A stretch of DNA of 64,000 nt from Methanotrichaceae archaeon. GTDB lineage: Archaea > Halobacteriota > Methanosarcinia > Methanotrichales > Methanotrichaceae. The DNA lies in the NCBI GenBank assembly GCA_013178225.1, contig JABLXE010000002.1, positions 62,001 through 126,000 on the forward strand, written 5' to 3'. This document shows, piece by piece, positions 39,277-48,218 of the stretch; within the stretch, counting starts at the first letter, position 1; every line of letters starts with the position of its first letter. The notes beneath the pieces were generated by a model. The model saw only the letters and a list, made by a program, of their open reading frames with translations, made no database searches and was not told the DNA's origin. Both the position numbers and the translations under genes were made by a program.

Positions 39277-40461
39277 TCAGATGATCTGCCAGTATATGAG
39301 CGGAGCAAGCAATAGCAGTGTCAGGCCGGTAATCAGACGGATCTTGGCCCGGTGGTCTTTTCGGAAGGCGTCCACCTGCTCGGGGCTCATTCCCAGGGCC
39401 ATGAAGGCACCCAGGATAATTATGGGCAGGATGATCCCCAGGTTGTAGAACAGCAGATAGACCGATCCAGCCAGATAGCTCTGGGTGGAGATCAGATCCA
39501 GGATGGCCAGGTAGACCGCTCCCACACACGGTGCCTTGACCAGTGAGAACAGAGCACCGAGGAGGAAGTAGGAGCTGAGCCGCCCACCAGAGAGGCCCGC
39601 CTCTACGTATTTCATGGACCAGTCGGTCCTGAAAAGCGACTCTTTCCCAACTGATAGCCTGCGTGCGTCCTCGATGTGCAGAAGGCCGATTACCACCAGA
39701 AAAGCCGTCAGGACATATCTAAATCCCGCGGCCACCATCTCCCCCTGCAAGAGGCGCTGCATGCCCAGGCCAAAGAGGAAGTACATGGTGAATATCCCCA
39801 GCGAGAAGAAGACCACCATCATCACCAGATCCCTTCTGCGACCGGCGCTGGAGAGCACGGCGGCCGCCAGGAATACCAGAATTCCCAGCAGGCAGGGGTT
39901 GAATCCGGCTACCAGCCCGGCCCCCAGAACTGCCGAGACCGTATAAAGGGATACCTGGCTCAGGTCCAGGCCTGCGTCCACGCCGAAGATGCCGCCGCTC
40001 AGGTTCAGGCTCTGATTGGAGCGATTATCATTTGGAGTTATATTGTTAATATTATTCGTAATATTAGCATTACCGATATTTTGACTGGCATTCCAGCTAT
40101 CCTGGGGGCGGCTCTGTTTGGACAGAGCCTCTTTTATCAGCCTTTCCAGCTTTTCAAGGTCGCCGTCATAGCTCTTGTATCCGATGACCTGGCTGCCTAT
40201 GATCACCGAGGGGACTTCCTTTGCACCTAGCTTCTTGATGATGGCGTGCCCATCGTCGGAGAAGTAGTCGGTGGAAACGATGGTCAAATTTTCCTCCGGG
40301 GCCATCTTTTCCAGCACCCTCTCTGCAGCAGCGCACTTCTGGCATCCCGGCGATTCTATCAGAATTACATCTGTGGAGGCCGCCATGCCGCACAGGAGCG
40401 TCAATACGGAGACCACAGCTAAGATGTACAAGCCCCTTCTCAGGTCACCGGCGGAACGCAT
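39277..40461 (-). CDS. Thioredoxin-CcdA fusion, exported reductant carrier
   Basis: 394 residues. N-terminal signal/anchor helix (GLYILAVVSVLTLLCGMAA), then a thioredoxin-like domain with SPGCQKC (C40-C43) and EVPSVIIGSQVIGY, an Asn-rich linker (about 124-155), and six CcdA/DsbD-type helices. The CcdA cysteines are GFNPCLLG (C190) and KAPCVGAVY (C312), the pair that passes electrons across the membrane. It probably moves reducing power from cytoplasm to the outside, where its own thioredoxin domain is displayed. The gene lies 2-7 kb from the rhodanese-like array, whose proteins have external Cys motifs. Substrate is inferred. Confidence 0.87.
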   Translation of the reverse strand: MRSAGDLRRGLYILAVVSVLTLLCGMAASTDVILIESPGCQKCAAAERVLEKMAPEENLTIVSTDYFSDDGHAIIKKLGAKEVPSVIIGSQVIGYKSYDGDLEKLERLIKEALSKQSRPQDSWNASQNIGNANITNNINNITPNDNRSNQSLNLSGGIFGVDAGLDLSQVSLYTVSAVLGAGLVAGFNPCLLGILVFLAAAVLSSAGRRRDLVMMVVFFSLGIFTMYFLFGLGMQRLLQGEMVAAGFRYVLTAFLVVIGLLHIEDARRLSVGKESLFRTDWSMKYVEAGLSGGRLSSYFLLGALFSLVKAPCVGAVYLAILDLISTQSYLAGSVYLLFYNLGIILPIIILGAFMALGMSPEQVDAFRKDHRAKIRLITGLTLLLLAPLIYWQII

Positions 40462-40542: not shown

Positions 40543-41109
40543 TCATTCGGGAGTAATATACTGCAATGATGCCCCTTCCTCCGAGGACTCCTGGGAGGCA
40601 AATCCGATGGATGCATCGCCATCTGCTACCAGAACTATGGAGTAAGGACATCCGTCAACGCAAAGCTCCACTGCCTTCTCGATCAGCGAAGTTATGTCGA
40701 TTGCGTATTCGCCTTCTTCAGCAATCTCCACCGACGCGGAGATGTCGCTTATATATTCAGGCTTGTCCTCCCATCCAACTCCGGGAAGCGTGGCCTCATG
40801 AGCCAGGTAGGCTGTAACCTCTCCCGGAATTTCCACATCGCTCGCATAGATTGTTAAGGTGGCAGATTCTATCGAATCAGGTGAAAAGACCCCCACCGCT
40901 CCGAAGTTGTTGATGAAGCTCAGGTACACTTCATTTTCCGGCACTCCGCTAACTGATGTAGCCCAGAGTACCTCTTCTTCGTCAAAGCTCTGGCTGGCGT
41001 CCGTCTGATCCATATAAGTGTCCACATCCAGTTCGGCCTGGAATTTCCCGGCAGAGGCCGAGGATACCAAGACCGCGATCAGCCCCAAAATTATCATCCA
41101 AGATCTCAA
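40543..41109 (-). CDS. Secreted DNRLRE-like surface protein
   Basis: 188 residues. Signal peptide MRSWMIILGLIAVLVSSASA. The rest is a beta-sandwich resembling DNRLRE domains: KFQAELDVDTYMDQTD, VYLSFINNFGA, SATLTIYASDVE, GVGWEDKPEY, YAIDITSLI and a terminal SSEEGASLQYITPE. Such domains occur in secreted cell-wall proteins. Acidic overall. There is no membrane anchor. Its upstream region (41110-41305) holds only AT-rich sequence between divergent genes. Confidence 0.7.
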   Translation of the reverse strand: MRSWMIILGLIAVLVSSASAGKFQAELDVDTYMDQTDASQSFDEEEVLWATSVSGVPENEVYLSFINNFGAVGVFSPDSIESATLTIYASDVEIPGEVTAYLAHEATLPGVGWEDKPEYISDISASVEIAEEGEYAIDITSLIEKAVELCVDGCPYSIVLVADGDASIGFASQESSEEGASLQYITPE

Positions 41110-41305: not shown

Positions 41306-42739
41306 GTGAAGTGTTTGAGAACGACGGCCTACTGTTTGCTGGGCACGATCCTGCTGCTCTCAGCCGCAGCCTGTGGAGCCACCACCAAGGTCAGCGGAGA
41401 CCTGCAGGCAGCCATCGATGCTGCCTCTCCCGGCGATACCCTGCTGGTATCAGCGGGTGTGTATGATAAGATTACCATAGAGAAGAGCCTGAACCTGGTG
41501 GGCGAAGGGGCCGTGATTTTAGCCGGCCAAAGAGACGCCGGCGTTGACGTACGGGCGGATCGAGTCAACATCTCCGGGTTTATGGTCAGAAACGGCTTTT
41601 ACGGGATAAAGCTCAACAGCGTGCAGGGCTGCCGCATCTCCAATAATACCGTATTAGATTGCGTCCAGCCGGGAATAGCCCTGCTGTTCTCGGACAACAA
41701 CACCATCGTGGGCAATAACGCCAGCTTCAACGGCCTGGGCGGAGAGGGCTGGTACGGCATTTACCTCTCCAACTCCAACCACAATCAGATCAGGAACAAC
41801 GTGGCCTGCAACAATGGCGCCTACGGCATAGACCTCTTTCCTTCCTGCAGCAACAACACCATTGCCGGAAACGTTCTCAAGCGGAACATGTACGGCCTTT
41901 ACATGTTCACCGACTGCGCCGATAATTTGATCGAAGGAAACGTCATGTCGGAGAACACCAACTCCGGCCTGGACATGCGCTTCAACTGTCACCATAACGC
42001 CGTTCTCAACAATACCATTGAGAACAACGTTGTCGCAGGTGTGACGCTCATTAGTTCCAGCCGAAATCTAATCAAAGGGAACTTGATCGATGCCAACGGA
42101 AGGTACGGCCTGCAGATCCAGAGCGGCTCGGATGACAATCTGATCACCAACAACACCATATCTCAAAGTCAAACCGGTTTGTTCATGGACTCAACCGGCA
42201 ATCGCATCTATAGCAATACAATTGCCGAAAATGTGGTCCAGGCTGAGGACCGGGATTCCAACATCTGGAACGCCTCCTATCCGATAGGGGGCAATCTGTG
42301 GAGCGATTATATCGGAACAGATGAAATGAGCGGCGTGAATCAGGACTTCCCAGGCGGGGACGGATTTGGGGATTCTTCTTACCAGATCAACGAAAGGGCC
42401 GAGGATCGGTACCCCGTGATGGGCGGACAGGTACAGCAGATCGCCCTGGTGCAAAAGAGCCTCTCGCCGCTAAAGGCAAGAATTGGCGACAATATCAACA
42501 TCCAGGCGGCTCTTTCGTCCAAGTACGATCTCTCCCAGGTGGTTGTGCGAGCCTTCCCTGAGGGAGGATCGGAATCCTGCGGATATGCCCGGTTATCGCC
42601 ATCCGGTAATGCTTATGCGGGAAAATTGTCCACCGGGCTCATGGACCAAGGAAACTACGAGATCGTCCTGATTGCTCGCGACACAAGAGGATACGAGCTA
42701 GTGGAGAACCTGGGCCTGATAGAAGTCTCGTCCAGGTAG
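41306..42739 (+). CDS. Exported right-handed beta-helix (NosD-like) protein
   Basis: 477 residues. Signal peptide (CLLGTILLLSAAACGA), DLQAAIDAASPGDTLLVSAG, then many N-rich helix rungs (CRISNNTVLDC, NTIVGNNASFNG, NNTIAGNVLKRN, NLIEGNVMSENTN, NNTISQSQTG). After about residue 345 comes a separate Ig-like domain (QKSLSPLKARIGDNINIQAAL). The GTG at 41306 has GGAGCAGGG upstream. It is a surface protein of the same type as that at 20276, with 43 bases to the next rhodanese gene, so it may lead that array. Ligand unknown. Confidence 0.87.
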   Translation: MKCLRTTAYCLLGTILLLSAAACGATTKVSGDLQAAIDAASPGDTLLVSAGVYDKITIEKSLNLVGEGAVILAGQRDAGVDVRADRVNISGFMVRNGFYGIKLNSVQGCRISNNTVLDCVQPGIALLFSDNNTIVGNNASFNGLGGEGWYGIYLSNSNHNQIRNNVACNNGAYGIDLFPSCSNNTIAGNVLKRNMYGLYMFTDCADNLIEGNVMSENTNSGLDMRFNCHHNAVLNNTIENNVVAGVTLISSSRNLIKGNLIDANGRYGLQIQSGSDDNLITNNTISQSQTGLFMDSTGNRIYSNTIAENVVQAEDRDSNIWNASYPIGGNLWSDYIGTDEMSGVNQDFPGGDGFGDSSYQINERAEDRYPVMGGQVQQIALVQKSLSPLKARIGDNINIQAALSSKYDLSQVVVRAFPEGGSESCGYARLSPSGNAYAGKLSTGLMDQGNYEIVLIARDTRGYELVENLGLIEVSSR

Positions 42740-42782: not shown

Positions 42783-43883
42783 ATGAAACTCATGAGTAAT
42801 CTAACATCAAAGATGATGTTCATCCTGGGATCAGGCGTCGTGCTAATCGCTCTGATCGCTTTGGCTCATGGCGGCCCGGAATGTGAGTCTCTGGGCGGAG
42901 ATTGTGCAACTGATGGCGGCTGGGATCCCATGGCCAAGCTGGATGAGATCGGCACGGGAAATTACGATAAGGCTGCATCCAGCATCGGCACCAACTGGCC
43001 GCAAAAGTCCAGAGAGGTTCGCTGGAACCAGCCGGTATCTGCCTTTGAGAATGAAACTGCAAACGAGACCGAGGCTGCCACCGTTCAGAATGTGGTGACA
43101 CCGTCCGCGTCCAAAACGGAGGAGCAGAAGGAGCCACTATCCAGGAGCAGTCAGTTCCAGGAGTGGCTGGTGCCCTTTGATGCCATCACCGACCAGGATC
43201 TGCTTCTGGACATCAGCGAGAACGCCAGTGAGCATATACCCGGTTCGGTGTACCTGCCTTATCCGGAGTTCATGCTAGATGGAAACCTGAAGTCGGTGGA
43301 AGAGGTCGTCTTGATATTGGGTGATGCGGGCGTATCCGAGAACGACTCGGTCTTGATCTACGGCGAGTGCCTGCCCTGTGGCGGCGGTCCCTCGGCTGCC
43401 ACCTACGTCTACTGGATGATGAAGTCGCTGGGCCATGAAAATGTCAGAGTTCTGGATGGGACGGTAGAGGACTGGAAAGAGGCAGGGAATGCTGCCACTT
43501 CAGAGAGCATGGTTCTTCCGGGTACCGTTTACACGCCGCATATTACAATGCAGTACATCGGCAGCTACGAGTTCATAAAAGAGGGCAATCCCCAGATCAT
43601 CGATGCCAGATCCATGCAGGATTTCGGCATCAACTCCATCCCGGGGGCCATCAACATCCCTTACGAGAGCGTGCTGGACGAAAAGAAGCTGAAAGACGAG
43701 GCCACTTTGAGGAGGATCTTTGCGGTGATCAGCAAAGACCGTCCGGTGGTGGTGTACACCAATACCGGCATCAAGGCCTCGGTGGAGTGGTTCGTCCTGG
43801 AGCTATTGGGCTACGATGCAAAGCTTTATTCCTGGCAAGATTGGCTTTATAATCAGCAGCCGGAAGGGAACTTGAGCGGCTGA
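42783..43883 (+). CDS. Exported tandem rhodanese-like protein 1
   Basis: 366 residues. N-terminal membrane helix (MMFILGSGVVLIALIALAHG), then Cys pair CESLGGDC, a linker, and two rhodanese-like domains (about 130-245 and 255-365). The first has VLIYGECLPCGGGPSAATYVYW, a CxxC (C196, C199) in place of the usual active-site loop; the second has VVVYTNTGIKAS, with Thr at the position of the catalytic Cys. It probably sits outside the membrane. Function is not established: it may bind or relay sulfur, or be structural. Start ATG 42783; 9 bases before rhodanese 2. Confidence 0.82.
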   Translation: MKLMSNLTSKMMFILGSGVVLIALIALAHGGPECESLGGDCATDGGWDPMAKLDEIGTGNYDKAASSIGTNWPQKSREVRWNQPVSAFENETANETEAATVQNVVTPSASKTEEQKEPLSRSSQFQEWLVPFDAITDQDLLLDISENASEHIPGSVYLPYPEFMLDGNLKSVEEVVLILGDAGVSENDSVLIYGECLPCGGGPSAATYVYWMMKSLGHENVRVLDGTVEDWKEAGNAATSESMVLPGTVYTPHITMQYIGSYEFIKEGNPQIIDARSMQDFGINSIPGAINIPYESVLDEKKLKDEATLRRIFAVISKDRPVVVYTNTGIKASVEWFVLELLGYDAKLYSWQDWLYNQQPEGNLSG

Positions 43884-43892
43884 GGTTGATGT

Positions 43893-44774
43893 ATGAACGG
43901 ACTTGGAGTTTATAGATGGATCTTGGCGCTGCTTTTGATCGCCTGCACGTTATTGGGCTCGGCCAGTGCAGGATGTTCCGCCTGCGGCGGCGGAAGCGGG
44001 GGCCGTGATATGGCCGCCTGGCAGGAGAGCATCAATAGCTGGGCGGGAGAGGAGATAATTGCCACCTCCTCGCCTGCTCCGGCGGAGACCGCTGCTCCTC
44101 GCGAGGGGAGCTTTGCCGAGGCCCTGGTTCCGGCCTCTTCTGTCGTAAGCTCGGACAAAGTGCTGGACGTGAGAGCTGAAGGCTCCGGCCATATCGGTGG
44201 GACGGTTGCTCTTCCCTACACCAGCCTCCTGAACGACCAGAGCATGCCGAAATCTGTTGACGAGACGGCGGAGGCCCTCGGCGCTGCAGGCATCAGTCAA
44301 AACGATGCGGTAATTCTGGTGGGAAGCGATCCTTCGGAGGTGGCTTACGTCTACTGGGCCCTGAAATACCTGGGACACCAGAACGTCCAGATACTTGATG
44401 CAGTGGCCGCGAACTGGAAGCCGGGGCAGAGGGAATCGCAGACTCTCCTGTCCACGACCTACACGCCCAGCCCGAACCAGCAGCTCTTGTCCGCATCAGA
44501 TGACCTGAAAGATGGCAGCGCTCAGATTATCGATGCCAGATCCATGCAGGATTTCGGCATGGGCTCTGTCCAGGGTGCGGTAAACGTTCCCGCAGAAGCC
44601 GTAACCAAAGATGGCCTGATCAAGGACCAGGCCGCTCTCGAAAAGGTCTTTGGCTTCTTGAACCGTCAAAAGCCGGTCATAGTCTATGCAAAGTCCGCCC
44701 AACAGGGTTCTCCGGCGTGGCTTGCGCTCACATTGTTGGGCTACGATGCCAGGCTCTATCCTGAGCAGAGCTGA
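43893..44774 (+). CDS. Exported tandem rhodanese-like protein 2 (both catalytic Cys lost)
   Basis: 293 residues. Signal peptide (WILALLLIACTLLGSASAG), then CSACGGGSGG, a spacer and two rhodanese-like domains. The first lacks the CxxC loop (VILVGSDPSEVAYVYW); the second has VIVYAKSAQQGS in place of the catalytic Cys. It is shorter than its neighbours and lacks a C-terminal extra domain. It shares near-identical DNA with rhodanese 1 at 44523-44560. It may act as a non-catalytic partner; inference only. Confidence 0.8.
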   Translation: MNGLGVYRWILALLLIACTLLGSASAGCSACGGGSGGRDMAAWQESINSWAGEEIIATSSPAPAETAAPREGSFAEALVPASSVVSSDKVLDVRAEGSGHIGGTVALPYTSLLNDQSMPKSVDETAEALGAAGISQNDAVILVGSDPSEVAYVYWALKYLGHQNVQILDAVAANWKPGQRESQTLLSTTYTPSPNQQLLSASDDLKDGSAQIIDARSMQDFGMGSVQGAVNVPAEAVTKDGLIKDQAALEKVFGFLNRQKPVIVYAKSAQQGSPAWLALTLLGYDARLYPEQS

Positions 44775-44828
44775 TTTGGCGGACGGGAAAATAAGGGATC
44801 AAAGGGACACAAAGGAAGGACTGAAGCG

Positions 44829-46361
44829 ATGAACGTGCGCAGATTTGGGCTGCTGGTGCTGCTGGTGACATTTGTTCTGGCCTGGGATGCCTCAGCCGTT
44901 TGTTCCACCTGCGGCAACAGCCTGGAACAGCAACAGGCAGCGGTAGAAGCAGGCTGGGCCACCTTCTTGGGAACGGCTCTCGGTGCCCAGACGATCAACC
45001 AGATTGCAGATGGTTCGCAGACGGGGCCGGTCCCGGCTAATAATTCGGAACCTGAAAATGCCTCGCAAACAGAGGCTGCAATCCCGGTGGACCAGAGGAG
45101 CGGCAGCCTTGCCCGGGTTCTGGTGCCGCTGTCGGCCGTCGGGAACCAGGATGTAATACTGGACATAAGTCCCTCGGCAACAGAGTACATACAAGGCGCT
45201 GTGGCCATCAACTATGAGACTTTGCTCGATGAGAACAAGCGCCTCCGGCCGGCATCGGAGCTGGCCAGGCTATTTGGAGATGCCGGCATATCGGAAAACG
45301 ACTCGGTACTGATCTACGGCGAGTGCCAGCCCTGCGGCGGCGGTCCCTCGGCTGCCACCTACGTCTACTGGGCTATGAAGTACCTGGGACACCAGAGGGT
45401 GCAGGTTCTGGATGGCGGAATAGACGACTGGGTGGCTGCCCGCATGCCTACCGAGGCTGAACCTGCAACGCTTCCTCCCGTGGCTTACAGGCCCACCATA
45501 CGGCCGGAGCTTATGGCCAGCTATGAGTACGTCGTGAACGGCCAGGCCCAGATAGTGGATGCGAGAACCGCACCGGAATTCGAGGCAGGTTCCGTCCCCG
45601 GAGCCATCAACATCCCCTACGAGAACGTACTGGACGAAAAAAAGATCAAGGACCAGTCCGGGCTGGAGCAGACCTTTGCCGCATTGACCGAGGACCGCCC
45701 GGTAGTGGTCTACACCAACACCGGCGTCAAGGCCTCTATGGTCTGGTTCGCGCTCAGCCTGATGGGCTATGATGCCAGGCTCTTCACCTGGCAGGACTGG
45801 CTGGAAAACCAGCCCACTCTTGGAATCCGGCTTCAGAACGTCTCCGCTCTCCCCAATCCTGCTCAAACCGGAAGTGTAGTCACGATCACGGCAGTCTTTG
45901 CCGAGAAGTCAGCAAAACCTCTTGCCGAGCCTTTGGAGGATGCGGTCCTTTCCGCGGAAAATGTCTCTGAAAACTATACCAATAACACCATCCTCACCAT
46001 AAAGGGATGCGCCACCTGCGGCTTTGGATCGCCCCAGGGCTTTGCTGACATCAGCTCGGATTCGGGAATTGTGCAGATAGGCTCCACCACGAGGACCGTA
46101 AAGGCCAATGCCTCCGATAACGGTTTCAGCTGCAGCGGCCGGATCACCACTCAATCGGGGACGCAGGTGGCCAAGGTCATCATGAAGCGCGTCTCAGGCG
46201 ATGAGTTTTCTGGAATCTGGAACGCGAACGTAGCCTCAGGAAACTACAGCCTCACCCTGGAGGCGACAGGAAACGGGATTACAGAGACTTTTGCCAATGT
46301 GCTGCAGATCGAGATAGTGCCGCCGGCCAGCAAATATAAGAACCTTGGAAAATATAATTAG
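44829..46361 (+). CDS. Exported tandem rhodanese-like protein 3 with C-terminal domain
   Basis: 510 residues. Signal peptide with CSTCGN just after it (AVCSTCGNSLEQQQA), two rhodanese-like domains: VLIYGECQPCGGGPSAATYVYW (C166, C169) and VVVYTNTGVKAS (Thr at the catalytic position), then about 150 residues of strand-rich C-terminal domain with another Cys pair (KGCATCGFGSPQ) and a Cys in NGFSCSG. Its active loops are those of protein 1. It leads directly, 9 bases later, into the subtilisin gene. Confidence 0.82.
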   Translation: MNVRRFGLLVLLVTFVLAWDASAVCSTCGNSLEQQQAAVEAGWATFLGTALGAQTINQIADGSQTGPVPANNSEPENASQTEAAIPVDQRSGSLARVLVPLSAVGNQDVILDISPSATEYIQGAVAINYETLLDENKRLRPASELARLFGDAGISENDSVLIYGECQPCGGGPSAATYVYWAMKYLGHQRVQVLDGGIDDWVAARMPTEAEPATLPPVAYRPTIRPELMASYEYVVNGQAQIVDARTAPEFEAGSVPGAINIPYENVLDEKKIKDQSGLEQTFAALTEDRPVVVYTNTGVKASMVWFALSLMGYDARLFTWQDWLENQPTLGIRLQNVSALPNPAQTGSVVTITAVFAEKSAKPLAEPLEDAVLSAENVSENYTNNTILTIKGCATCGFGSPQGFADISSDSGIVQIGSTTRTVKANASDNGFSCSGRITTQSGTQVAKVIMKRVSGDEFSGIWNANVASGNYSLTLEATGNGITETFANVLQIEIVPPASKYKNLGKYN

Positions 46362-46370
46362 AAGGCAAGT

Positions 46371-48218
46371 GTGAAAGCCAAGCCCTTGCTATATTTTATC
46401 CTTCTGGCCTGTCTTCTCAGCTCTGCGGCCGCCACTTCACCGGGTCTCCCGGAGAACAAGGCCACCCGGTGGTTCCAGCAGGAGTACGAGAGCTATCTTG
46501 CACCCGGCAAGTCCGATCAAACGCCGCCGGCGATTTATGGAGTATCGGTCTCGCCAACGGTCTTGAAGTGCGGCGATCCCAGGTCTGAGATCAACGCCTA
46601 TATTCACGACCAGGCCGGCATCGAGATGGTTTATGCCGATATCGGCAGCCGCATGAATCTGATGCTGGATCTGGACCTGGATCACAGGTACACCGGCTAT
46701 TGCGGGTCGAACCTTCATGCGGGAACTTACAAGGTCACTATCGTGGCCATAGACAAATCCGGAAATGCAGCTCGAGATGAGACTGCCAGGCTCACCATCG
46801 TCGATCCCGGTGACCTGAACGGCAACCGCATTGAAGACAGCCTGGAGAAGCAGAAGGATGAGAATCTGAAAGTGATTGTTCTGCATGACGGCAATCTGAG
46901 CGGCCTTCCGGCGGCAGAGAAGCTGGAGGTCTTGCCGGCCAGCTCCGTGACCCTTCCCGGGGACCGGCTGGAAGAGATCTCCAAAATAAAAGGGGTCAAG
47001 GGCATATACCAGGATCAGAAGCTGAAAGTGATGGCCGGTCCTGGCTCTGGCGTCTCCCGCGTTGGCGCTGATGCGGTCAGAGAGTCGGGCCTTGATGGCA
47101 AAGGAGTGACCGTTGCGCTGATTGACACCGGAGCCGACGCAAATCACCAGTCGTTGAAGGACAAGATTGTGGCCTTCAAGGACTTCGTGAACGACCAGAC
47201 GGAAGCCTACGACGACAACGGCCATGGCACCCATTGCGCCAGCCTGATCGCCGGAGGTGATGGAGTCGGCATAGCTCCGGGAGCAAAGCTGGCCGTGGTC
47301 AAGGTCATGGACCGGGAAGGAGCATGCTATCTATCCGATGCCCTCAAGGCGCTGGACTGGTGTCTGGAGAACAAGGATCGCTATGGAATCGAGGTTGTCT
47401 CCTTCAGTGTCGGCGGAGATGGCCCATCAGACGGCACATCCCTGCTTGACGAGGCCTGTGACCGCATGGTTGACGAGGGGCTGGTGATGTGCGTTGCCGC
47501 CGGGAATTCAGGGCCTGACGAGGGATCGATAGTCATTCCCGGCGATGCCGACCAGGTGATCACAGTCGGGGCCATCGATCAAGATGATGTCGTCTTCGAG
47601 CTGTCCTCAAGGGGGTCGTCCTCGTCCGAGGACATCAAGCCGGACCTGGTAACCCTGGGTGTGGACGTGGTATCGGCTCTGGCTGGATCAAAGGACGGCT
47701 ACAGCTCCATGAGCGGCACCTCCATGGCTGTTCCTCGGGTCTCGGGAGCAGCGGCGCTGCTGCTGCAGGCAGACCCGGATCTTGCGCCCTCTGACGTCAA
47801 GAGGATCCTCCTCAAGACCGCCGATGACCTCGGCGCTGAAGGTCCTGACTACGTTTACGGCTACGGCGCTCTGAACCTGTCCCGGGCTTTATCGAGCACG
47901 ACTCACAGGACTGCGGAGTTGAGGGCCCCGGAGCTTGAGTCTGTAGAGCTTTCTCGCGACGAGGGCCAGGTGGGGGACGCGGTCATGATCGAGGCTCGCG
48001 CGGCGGGCGATATCAAGGCCATAAGCTCGCTGGTAAAGGGCCCGGACAGAGGGCTGGAGATACCGATGGATGACTTCGATATGAACGGCATTTACACAGC
48101 CCGCTGGGAGACCAGCTTCTGGACTCCGGGCAGTTACGATATCAATGTCGAGATGCAGGGGAAATTTGGAGAGAAAGCATCTCTGGCAGTCCCTTTTTAC
48201 CTGAATCCCAGGATGTGA
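46371..48218 (+). CDS. Exported subtilisin-like serine protease (S8)
   Basis: 615 residues. Signal peptide (LLYFILLACLLSSAAATSPG), an Ig-like N-terminal domain (ending ARLTIVDPGDLNGNRIED), a propeptide-like segment, and a peptidase S8 domain. Catalytic triad: Asp252 (ALIDTGAD), His285 (NGHGTHCAS) and Ser451 (SGTSMAVP); AAGNSGPDEG carries the oxyanion Asn. A C-terminal beta domain of about 90 residues follows. It would act at the cell surface. Start GTG 46371, 9 bases after rhodanese 3, so it is likely co-transcribed with the array and might process these proteins. Confidence 0.92.
   Translation: MKAKPLLYFILLACLLSSAAATSPGLPENKATRWFQQEYESYLAPGKSDQTPPAIYGVSVSPTVLKCGDPRSEINAYIHDQAGIEMVYADIGSRMNLMLDLDLDHRYTGYCGSNLHAGTYKVTIVAIDKSGNAARDETARLTIVDPGDLNGNRIEDSLEKQKDENLKVIVLHDGNLSGLPAAEKLEVLPASSVTLPGDRLEEISKIKGVKGIYQDQKLKVMAGPGSGVSRVGADAVRESGLDGKGVTVALIDTGADANHQSLKDKIVAFKDFVNDQTEAYDDNGHGTHCASLIAGGDGVGIAPGAKLAVVKVMDREGACYLSDALKALDWCLENKDRYGIEVVSFSVGGDGPSDGTSLLDEACDRMVDEGLVMCVAAGNSGPDEGSIVIPGDADQVITVGAIDQDDVVFELSSRGSSSSEDIKPDLVTLGVDVVSALAGSKDGYSSMSGTSMAVPRVSGAAALLLQADPDLAPSDVKRILLKTADDLGAEGPDYVYGYGALNLSRALSSTTHRTAELRAPELESVELSRDEGQVGDAVMIEARAAGDIKAISSLVKGPDRGLEIPMDDFDMNGIYTARWETSFWTPGSYDINVEMQGKFGEKASLAVPFYLNPRM

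Follow-up and report, generated by a model that had tools for sequence, protein, structure and literature searches.

Methanothrix is a major methane producer. All Methanotrichales and part of ANME-1 have sheath (SH) proteins (PMC11576556); the hoops of the sheath are joined by disulfides, and its assembly factors are unknown (PMC11576556, PMC6242892, PMC10593813). No protein that assembles or cross-links an archaeal sheath has been described, and a 2024 survey, which noted DsbB/DsbD in sheathed archaea, named no rhodanese, found no conserved gene context and drew no candidates from it (PMC11576556). Rhodaneses can be reduced by thioredoxin (PMC3276061). Here we describe a family of exported rhodanese-like proteins, three of which (R1, R2 and R3) are encoded in tandem ahead of a subtilase gene in a 64,000-nucleotide stretch (“the window”) of a Methanotrichaceae archaeon (GenBank assembly GCA_013178225.1, contig JABLXE010000002.1, positions 62,001 to 126,000 of the forward strand). 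We labeled this genome G000 and its contig C12; other genomes carry G-numbers and other loci L-numbers. Our reading, to which we give a probability of roughly 0.45, is that the R proteins, with their two-domain rhodanese fold, serve as exported thiol-disulfide oxidoreductases fed by a thioredoxin-like protein fused to a DsbD-type membrane domain (Trx-DsbD), with sheath disulfides as the likeliest client.

A preliminary description made from the sequence had reported the array and suggested a motif search in other genomes, structure prediction and analysis of genome context, all of which were run. Its observation of the array is confirmed: the three R genes and the subtilase gene lie in tandem on the + strand with agreeing coordinates and Pfam matches. 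Each R protein contains two stretches matching Pfam Rhodanese (PF00581; E = 2e-20, 7e-17 and 4e-22 for R1, R2 and R3; 62-79 bits against a cut-off of 22.2), and R2 and R3 are 40% and 44% identical to R1. Signal peptides were assigned by eye. The N-terminal Cys pair described as common to all three is CxxC in R2 and R3, but in R1 its spacing is C-x6-C.

The catalytic Cys of the second domain is gone, as had been stated. The YTNTG of the domain-2 loop aligns with the YCRIG of solved sulfurtransferases, and the Cys has therefore been replaced, by Thr in R1 and R3 and by Ala in R2 (YAKSA). A misalignment hiding the Cys was ruled out by these alignments and by relatives that do carry Cys at this position. 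Across 102 rhodanese-like open reading frames (ORFs) the position is occupied by T in 64, S in 24, A in 9, G in 2, D in 1 and C in 2, both of the last being ordinary SseA-type enzymes. The R proteins thus lack the residue required of an active thiosulfate or 3-mercaptopyruvate sulfurtransferase, and their scores of 66.9, 39.3 and 63.1 bits fall short of the 250-bit equivalog cut-off of PRK11493.1 (NCBIfam).

A different Cys pair is conserved in domain 1. In the two-domain region of 28 aligned R1/R3 proteins, conservation peaks at YGECxPCGGGP (positions 163-173), which ranks first among 220 eleven-residue windows. C166 and C169 are invariant in this alignment (A2), and this CxxC lies at an active-site position. 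Of 50 Methanotrichaceae genomes, 33 contain the coded loop motif, which was absent from every sampled genome of the phylum that does not belong to this family; a reversed-pattern control gave zero matches. The motif is therefore not a product of chance. CxxC is present at loop 1 in 90 of the 102 rhodanese-like ORFs, and divergent paralogues with an altered loop usually retain it (YGSCMECGDP, DCPTCLGGP, YGECLPCGTGP). The CLPCGGGPSA/CQPCGGGPSA loop had been presented as a novelty of two of the three proteins; it is present in those two and missing from R2, but it is not unique to the array, since other Methanotrichaceae genera also have it and some ANME-1 genomes have it as CxxCGG.

An AlphaFold 2 (AF2) model of R3 gave confident rhodanese domains, with a predicted local distance difference test score (pLDDT) of about 90 or more across the rhodanese region. 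The helix that follows loop 1 begins at residue 174, five past Cys169. The top Foldseek matches of R3 were two-domain sulfurtransferases, and the predicted fold is that of a rhodanese and not of a thioredoxin. The R proteins could therefore act like a thiol-disulfide oxidoreductase without belonging to the thioredoxin family.

In named Methanotrichaceae metagenome-assembled genomes (MAGs) the order of the main locus is Trx-DsbD and CBM96 (divergent), NosD, R1, R3, subtilase, aldolase, site-2 protease and TraB, and NosD-R1-R3-subtilase forms a conserved block of the Methanotrichaceae. Several other genera have one R3-like gene at this position. A second type of locus, unlinked to the main one, has CBM96, Trx-DsbD, R genes and often DGC, with no NosD or subtilase; CBM96 stands beside Trx-DsbD and the R genes in L040, L043, L046 and L100. 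Over 24 genomes, 21 of 29 Trx-DsbD genes had a family gene within 5 kb, compared with 0.68 expected by chance placement, and for seven of them the distance was at most 0.5 kb. DGC was within 2 kb of a family gene in 14 of 19 cases (0.2 expected). Because the genomes compared are related, these counts do not represent independent events.

All 13 aligned Trx-DsbD proteins have the CxxC and the two membrane cysteines. The protein of the window scored 42.4 bits against DsbD_TM (cut-off 27.1) and 31.7 bits against the DsbD family model NF001419, below its cut-off of 330. Its AF2 model (mean pLDDT 63) was used solely for the fold of the N-terminal domain, which is of the Trx/glutaredoxin (Grx) type. 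At a third type of locus, R paralogues without CxxC occur near a Redoxin-DsbD fusion. DsbD_TM fusions, several with a Redoxin/AhpC-TSA domain, were seen near R paralogues (several of them without CxxC) in L053, L091, L095, L096, L098, L101 and L103. In G044 a family member is followed closely by a gene (L042:10525-11250) for a protein with N/Q-containing repeats and CxxC pairs and no Pfam match.

The features of the window are collected in Table 1. The gaps are 43 bases (NosD-R1), 9 (R1-R2), 54 (R2-R3), 9 (R3-subtilase, as originally noted) and 7 (subtilase-aldolase). The subtilase scored 199 bits against Peptidase_S8 (cut-off 21.8), and its D, H and S motifs (ALIDTGAD, NGHGTH, SGTSMA) are present. 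Elsewhere in the window, adjacent tRNA genes for Phe and Val lie on the - strand at 178-329.

Table 1. Features of the R locus and its upstream neighbors, in window positions.
Feature	Position	Strand	Evidence and remarks
R1, exported two-domain rhodanese-like protein, 366 aa	42783..43883	+	Pfam Rhodanese x2; orthologues at the same place in Methanotrichaceae MAGs
R1 domain-1 loop GECLPCGGGP	43362..43390	+	Pattern match G000:C12:105362-105390; invariant except at one position in alignment A2
R1 Thr326 codon, catalytic-Cys position of domain 2 (YTNTG)	43758..43760	+	Aligned to YCRIG of solved sulfurtransferases and to relatives
R2, degenerate extra paralogue, 293 aa	43893..44774	+	Loop-1 Cys missing; Ala in place of the catalytic Cys of domain 2
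R3, exported two-domain rhodanese-like protein with C-terminal beta domain, 510 aa	44829..46361	+	Pfam, AF2, Foldseek
R3 N-terminal CxxC (C25-C28), directly past presumed signal peptide	44901..44912	+	Kept in most R3 relatives
R3 domain-1 loop GECQPCGGGP (C166, C169)	45318..45346	+	Pattern match; alignment conservation; AF2 helix position
R3 Thr296 codon, domain-2 catalytic-Cys position	45714..45716	+	Alignments
R3 C-terminal CATC (C394-C397)	46008..46019	+	Further conserved pair, in the C-terminal part; most long R3 relatives have GCATCGFGSPQ
Exported subtilase (S8), GTG start	46371..48218	+	Peptidase_S8 E = 1e-58; in relatives, also placed after R3 (main locus)
NosD-type exported parallel beta-helix protein, upstream of R1	41306..42739	+	Pfam NosD E = 2e-41; conserved order
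Exported CBM96/DNRLRE-domain protein, divergent	40543..41109	-	Pfam CBM96 E = 4e-12
Exported Trx/Grx-like domain (SPGCQKC) fused to DsbD_TM (Trx-DsbD), divergent	39277..40461	-	Pfam DsbD_TM E = 6e-11; invariant C40, C43, C190, C312

The three-gene array as such is not conserved. No counterpart of R2 was present in any of the other Methanotrichaceae loci compared; R2 has none of the loop cysteines, and in the tree it forms a long branch beside the R1 clade. The conserved unit consists of two proteins, R1 and R3, and the array of three was ruled out as a functional unit since R2 is private to the window genome. One contig labeled Candidatus Methanosuratincola (L021, JACIVP010000034.1) has R3, subtilase, aldolase and site-2 protease in the Methanothrix order, and is probably a mis-binned Methanothrix contig.

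Outside the Methanotrichaceae, matches with E below 1e-40 in a 295-genome sample of the phylum were limited to genomes of one family (f9) and a single genome of another (f8). For f9, one McrA was checked (G134): it matches 3SQG, an ANME-1 structure, along 579 of 579 residues. Contamination as the origin of the ANME-1 copies was ruled out for G134 and G217, where the copy is on the same contig as mcrA. All ten outside copies have the domain-2 Cys, as YCxSG or, in one truncated ORF, YCW. In the tree, an ANME-1 clade with this Cys is separate from a Methanotrichaceae clade without it, which fits a single loss at the base of the latter. In two ANME-1 genomes (L118 and L116) an R-family gene is about 6 kb from mcrA, and in L116 a Peptidase_U32-like gene lies downstream.

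To look for SH proteins we used three probable SH proteins of M. thermoacetophila, picked by position and sequence character and not by locus tag; these queries detected SH proteins in G015 as well as in the genome of the window. The SH proteins examined have 4-10 Cys, with an invariant C-terminal Cys. Co-occurrence was scored in 53 non-Methanotrichaceae genomes (51 of the ANME-1 family and two of f8). The R family was found in seven. A first profile gave SH matches in six of these, and in the remaining one, G251, the match came with a better profile. None of the 53 was scored as SH-positive and R-negative, the 46 negatives having been scored mainly with the less sensitive profile. Fisher's exact test gave 3e-7 when the first profile was used and 6e-9 for both combined. 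The better profile, which may miss SH proteins of the Methanospirillum type, had no match in G294 or in 74 more genomes (Methanomicrobiales, Methanosarcinia and Archaeoglobus-like, by inferred group name). So far as sampled, the R family appears restricted to genomes with this kind of cysteine-rich sheath protein; with its new cysteine center and DsbD-type neighbors, it is a direct target for work in Methanothrix and in the ANME-1 methane oxidizers.

One family member has already entered the literature. Quantitative PCR primers were published for Mthe_1071 (‘sseA’, rhodanese domain protein; PMC10470525). They match L086 with a 102-base amplicon, and Mthe_1071 (loop YGECRPCGG) is therefore a member of the R family. 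By order and size, it is directly downstream of Mthe_1070 and mspA in M. thermoacetophila. A fixed linkage to sheath genes was considered and rejected: just 2 of 29 genomes had an MspA homologue, and the R-DGC locus of M. thermoacetophila lies apart from the sheath genes of that species. In one Methanothrix MAG an SH-type gene directly follows the aldolase of the main locus (L010:12093-12902). The genome of the window has 34 sheath-profile matches, and sheath-type genes lie beyond the window at G000:C12:140113-145280 and C12:57828-58613, among them a tandem array some 14 kb beyond the end of the window.

The Cys pair of loop 1, the lost sulfur-transfer Cys and the DsbD-type neighbors together favor thiol-disulfide exchange outside the membrane. 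The redox activity, the electron donor and the client are all things that we infer. In this mechanism the sulfur-transfer site of domain 2 would be dead, its Cys replaced by Thr, Ser or Ala; the active-site loop of domain 1 is lengthened and bears the CxPC pair. The second Cys of the pair, at the helix start, would occupy the place of the rhodanese nucleophile, with the first as its resolving partner. Electrons from the cytoplasm might cross the membrane by way of the DsbD domain, reach the fused thioredoxin-like domain on the extracytoplasmic side and move on to the CxPC loop, with cysteines of surface proteins as the final acceptors; the other CxxC pairs, N- and C-terminal, may serve as relays. 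The likeliest client would be the cysteine-rich SH protein, whose disulfides may need reduction or reshuffling during assembly or remodeling, and the co-encoded subtilase and NosD-type protein could process or scaffold surface proteins. If this is true, the R proteins are a case of a rhodanese fold that gave up sulfur transfer for thiol exchange.

That the sheath is the client is the most interesting step and also the least certain one. Several observations weigh against it, or against the mechanism as a whole. Counted by genus, R/SH co-occurrence is 3/15 (p = 0.002), which represents few lineages; the SH match in G231 is weak (E = 2e-4); most of the ANME-1 SH negatives rest on the profile that missed G251; and the count left out the sheathed Methanomicrobiales. 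There is no general linkage of the R family to sheath genes, and the adjacency of Mthe_1071 to mspA is only suggestive because, by a later judgment, MspA was probably mistaken for the main sheath protein (PMC11576556). At the main locus Trx-DsbD is divergent from the operon, and none was seen beside family genes in the ANME-1 loci read. Finally, of the ten ANME-1/G289 copies only five have a strict CxxC in loop 1. The broader proposal of a dedicated system, in which rhodanese-fold oxidoreductases that have given up sulfur transfer and acquired a CxPC center in the normally inactive domain take electrons from Trx-DsbD and remodel SH disulfides, in Methanothrix and, as an ancestral form with the domain-2 Cys, in ANME-1, is rather less likely than not. 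The R family is a candidate sheath factor, not a proven one.

Other functions have to be weighed against thiol-disulfide exchange. Sulfur transfer may have been relocated to domain 1, with Cys169 as a persulfide nucleophile that Cys166 resolves, so that sulfane sulfur (polysulfide or thiosulfate) is moved or reduced outside the cell. That the fold is nearest to two-domain sulfurtransferases, that Cys169 stands five residues ahead of the helix start as in CxxGxxA loops, and that ANME-1 and G289 relatives keep the normal domain-2 Cys all agree with this. We nevertheless consider it unlikely, as in the alignments the loop is several residues longer than the canonical one, the usual site is lost throughout the Methanotrichaceae, and the neighbors are disulfide-redox proteins and not known sulfur-metabolism genes.

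Less likely again is a role in metal or metalloid handling, where the CxxC pairs would bind zinc, copper or arsenic in partnership with the DGC protein, an ArsP_1-type permease and the NosD-like protein. DGC is linked to the R family, ArsP_1 permeases adjoin two loci of the second type, and there are several CxxC per protein; but the window genome has no DGC match and keeps the main locus nonetheless, the NosD match is to a beta-helix family and does not in itself speak for copper binding, and loop 1 is at the rhodanese active-site position. The least probable alternative is that the R proteins are non-catalytic pseudoenzymes, surface or sheath building blocks whose cysteines form structural disulfides. 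A strictly conserved, glycine-rich CxPC loop would be unusual for a structural disulfide, and linkage to DsbD-type genes also argues against this idea, although the normal active site is lost, R3 has a C-terminal beta domain and paralogues without CxxC persist. Thiol-disulfide exchange remains our preferred reading. The preliminary interpretation, a surface sulfur or disulfide system, is thus partly supported, its disulfide half being backed by the Trx-DsbD fusion, which is syntenic with the family and recurs at a second, unlinked locus, by the DGC genes and by co-occurrence with sheath proteins.

The statement that no described system has this make-up also held in the open-licence literature, where searches on rhodanese in ANME-1, or on rhodanese with DsbD or CxxC, returned nothing that describes the R family. 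Several known systems are nonetheless comparable. R3 resembles two-domain sulfurtransferases (3-mercaptopyruvate sulfurtransferase SseA, bovine rhodanese and M. tuberculosis CysA2/SseA) in overall fold, with Foldseek TM scores (target) mostly of about 0.67-0.75 at 22-27% identity. Unlike these enzymes, the R proteins are exported, their domain-2 catalytic Cys is replaced and they have a Cys pair in domain 1, which is normally inactive; R3 has in addition extra CxxC pairs and a C-terminal domain. As in DsbD/CcdA systems, the Trx-DsbD of the window combines an extracytoplasmic Trx/Grx-like CxxC domain with a DsbD_TM domain that has two conserved membrane cysteines, but domain order and length differ and the proposed partner is a rhodanese fold. 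TsoB (a rhodanese/DsbD fusion-like selenoprotein) and ExtH (from the Geobacter selenite/tellurite operon) likewise tie a rhodanese to DsbD or to surface redox chemistry; the NCBIfam matches to them are weak, at 20.7 of 805 and 18.6 of 200 bits far under the cut-offs, and no selenocysteine or cytochrome context was seen. Finally, the R family shares its host lineages, Methanotrichales and part of ANME-1, with the SH proteins and the DsbB/DsbD of sheathed archaea (PMC11576556). Disulfides matter for the integrity of the sheath and, in contrast to that set, in which no rhodanese is named, the R family is a new candidate.

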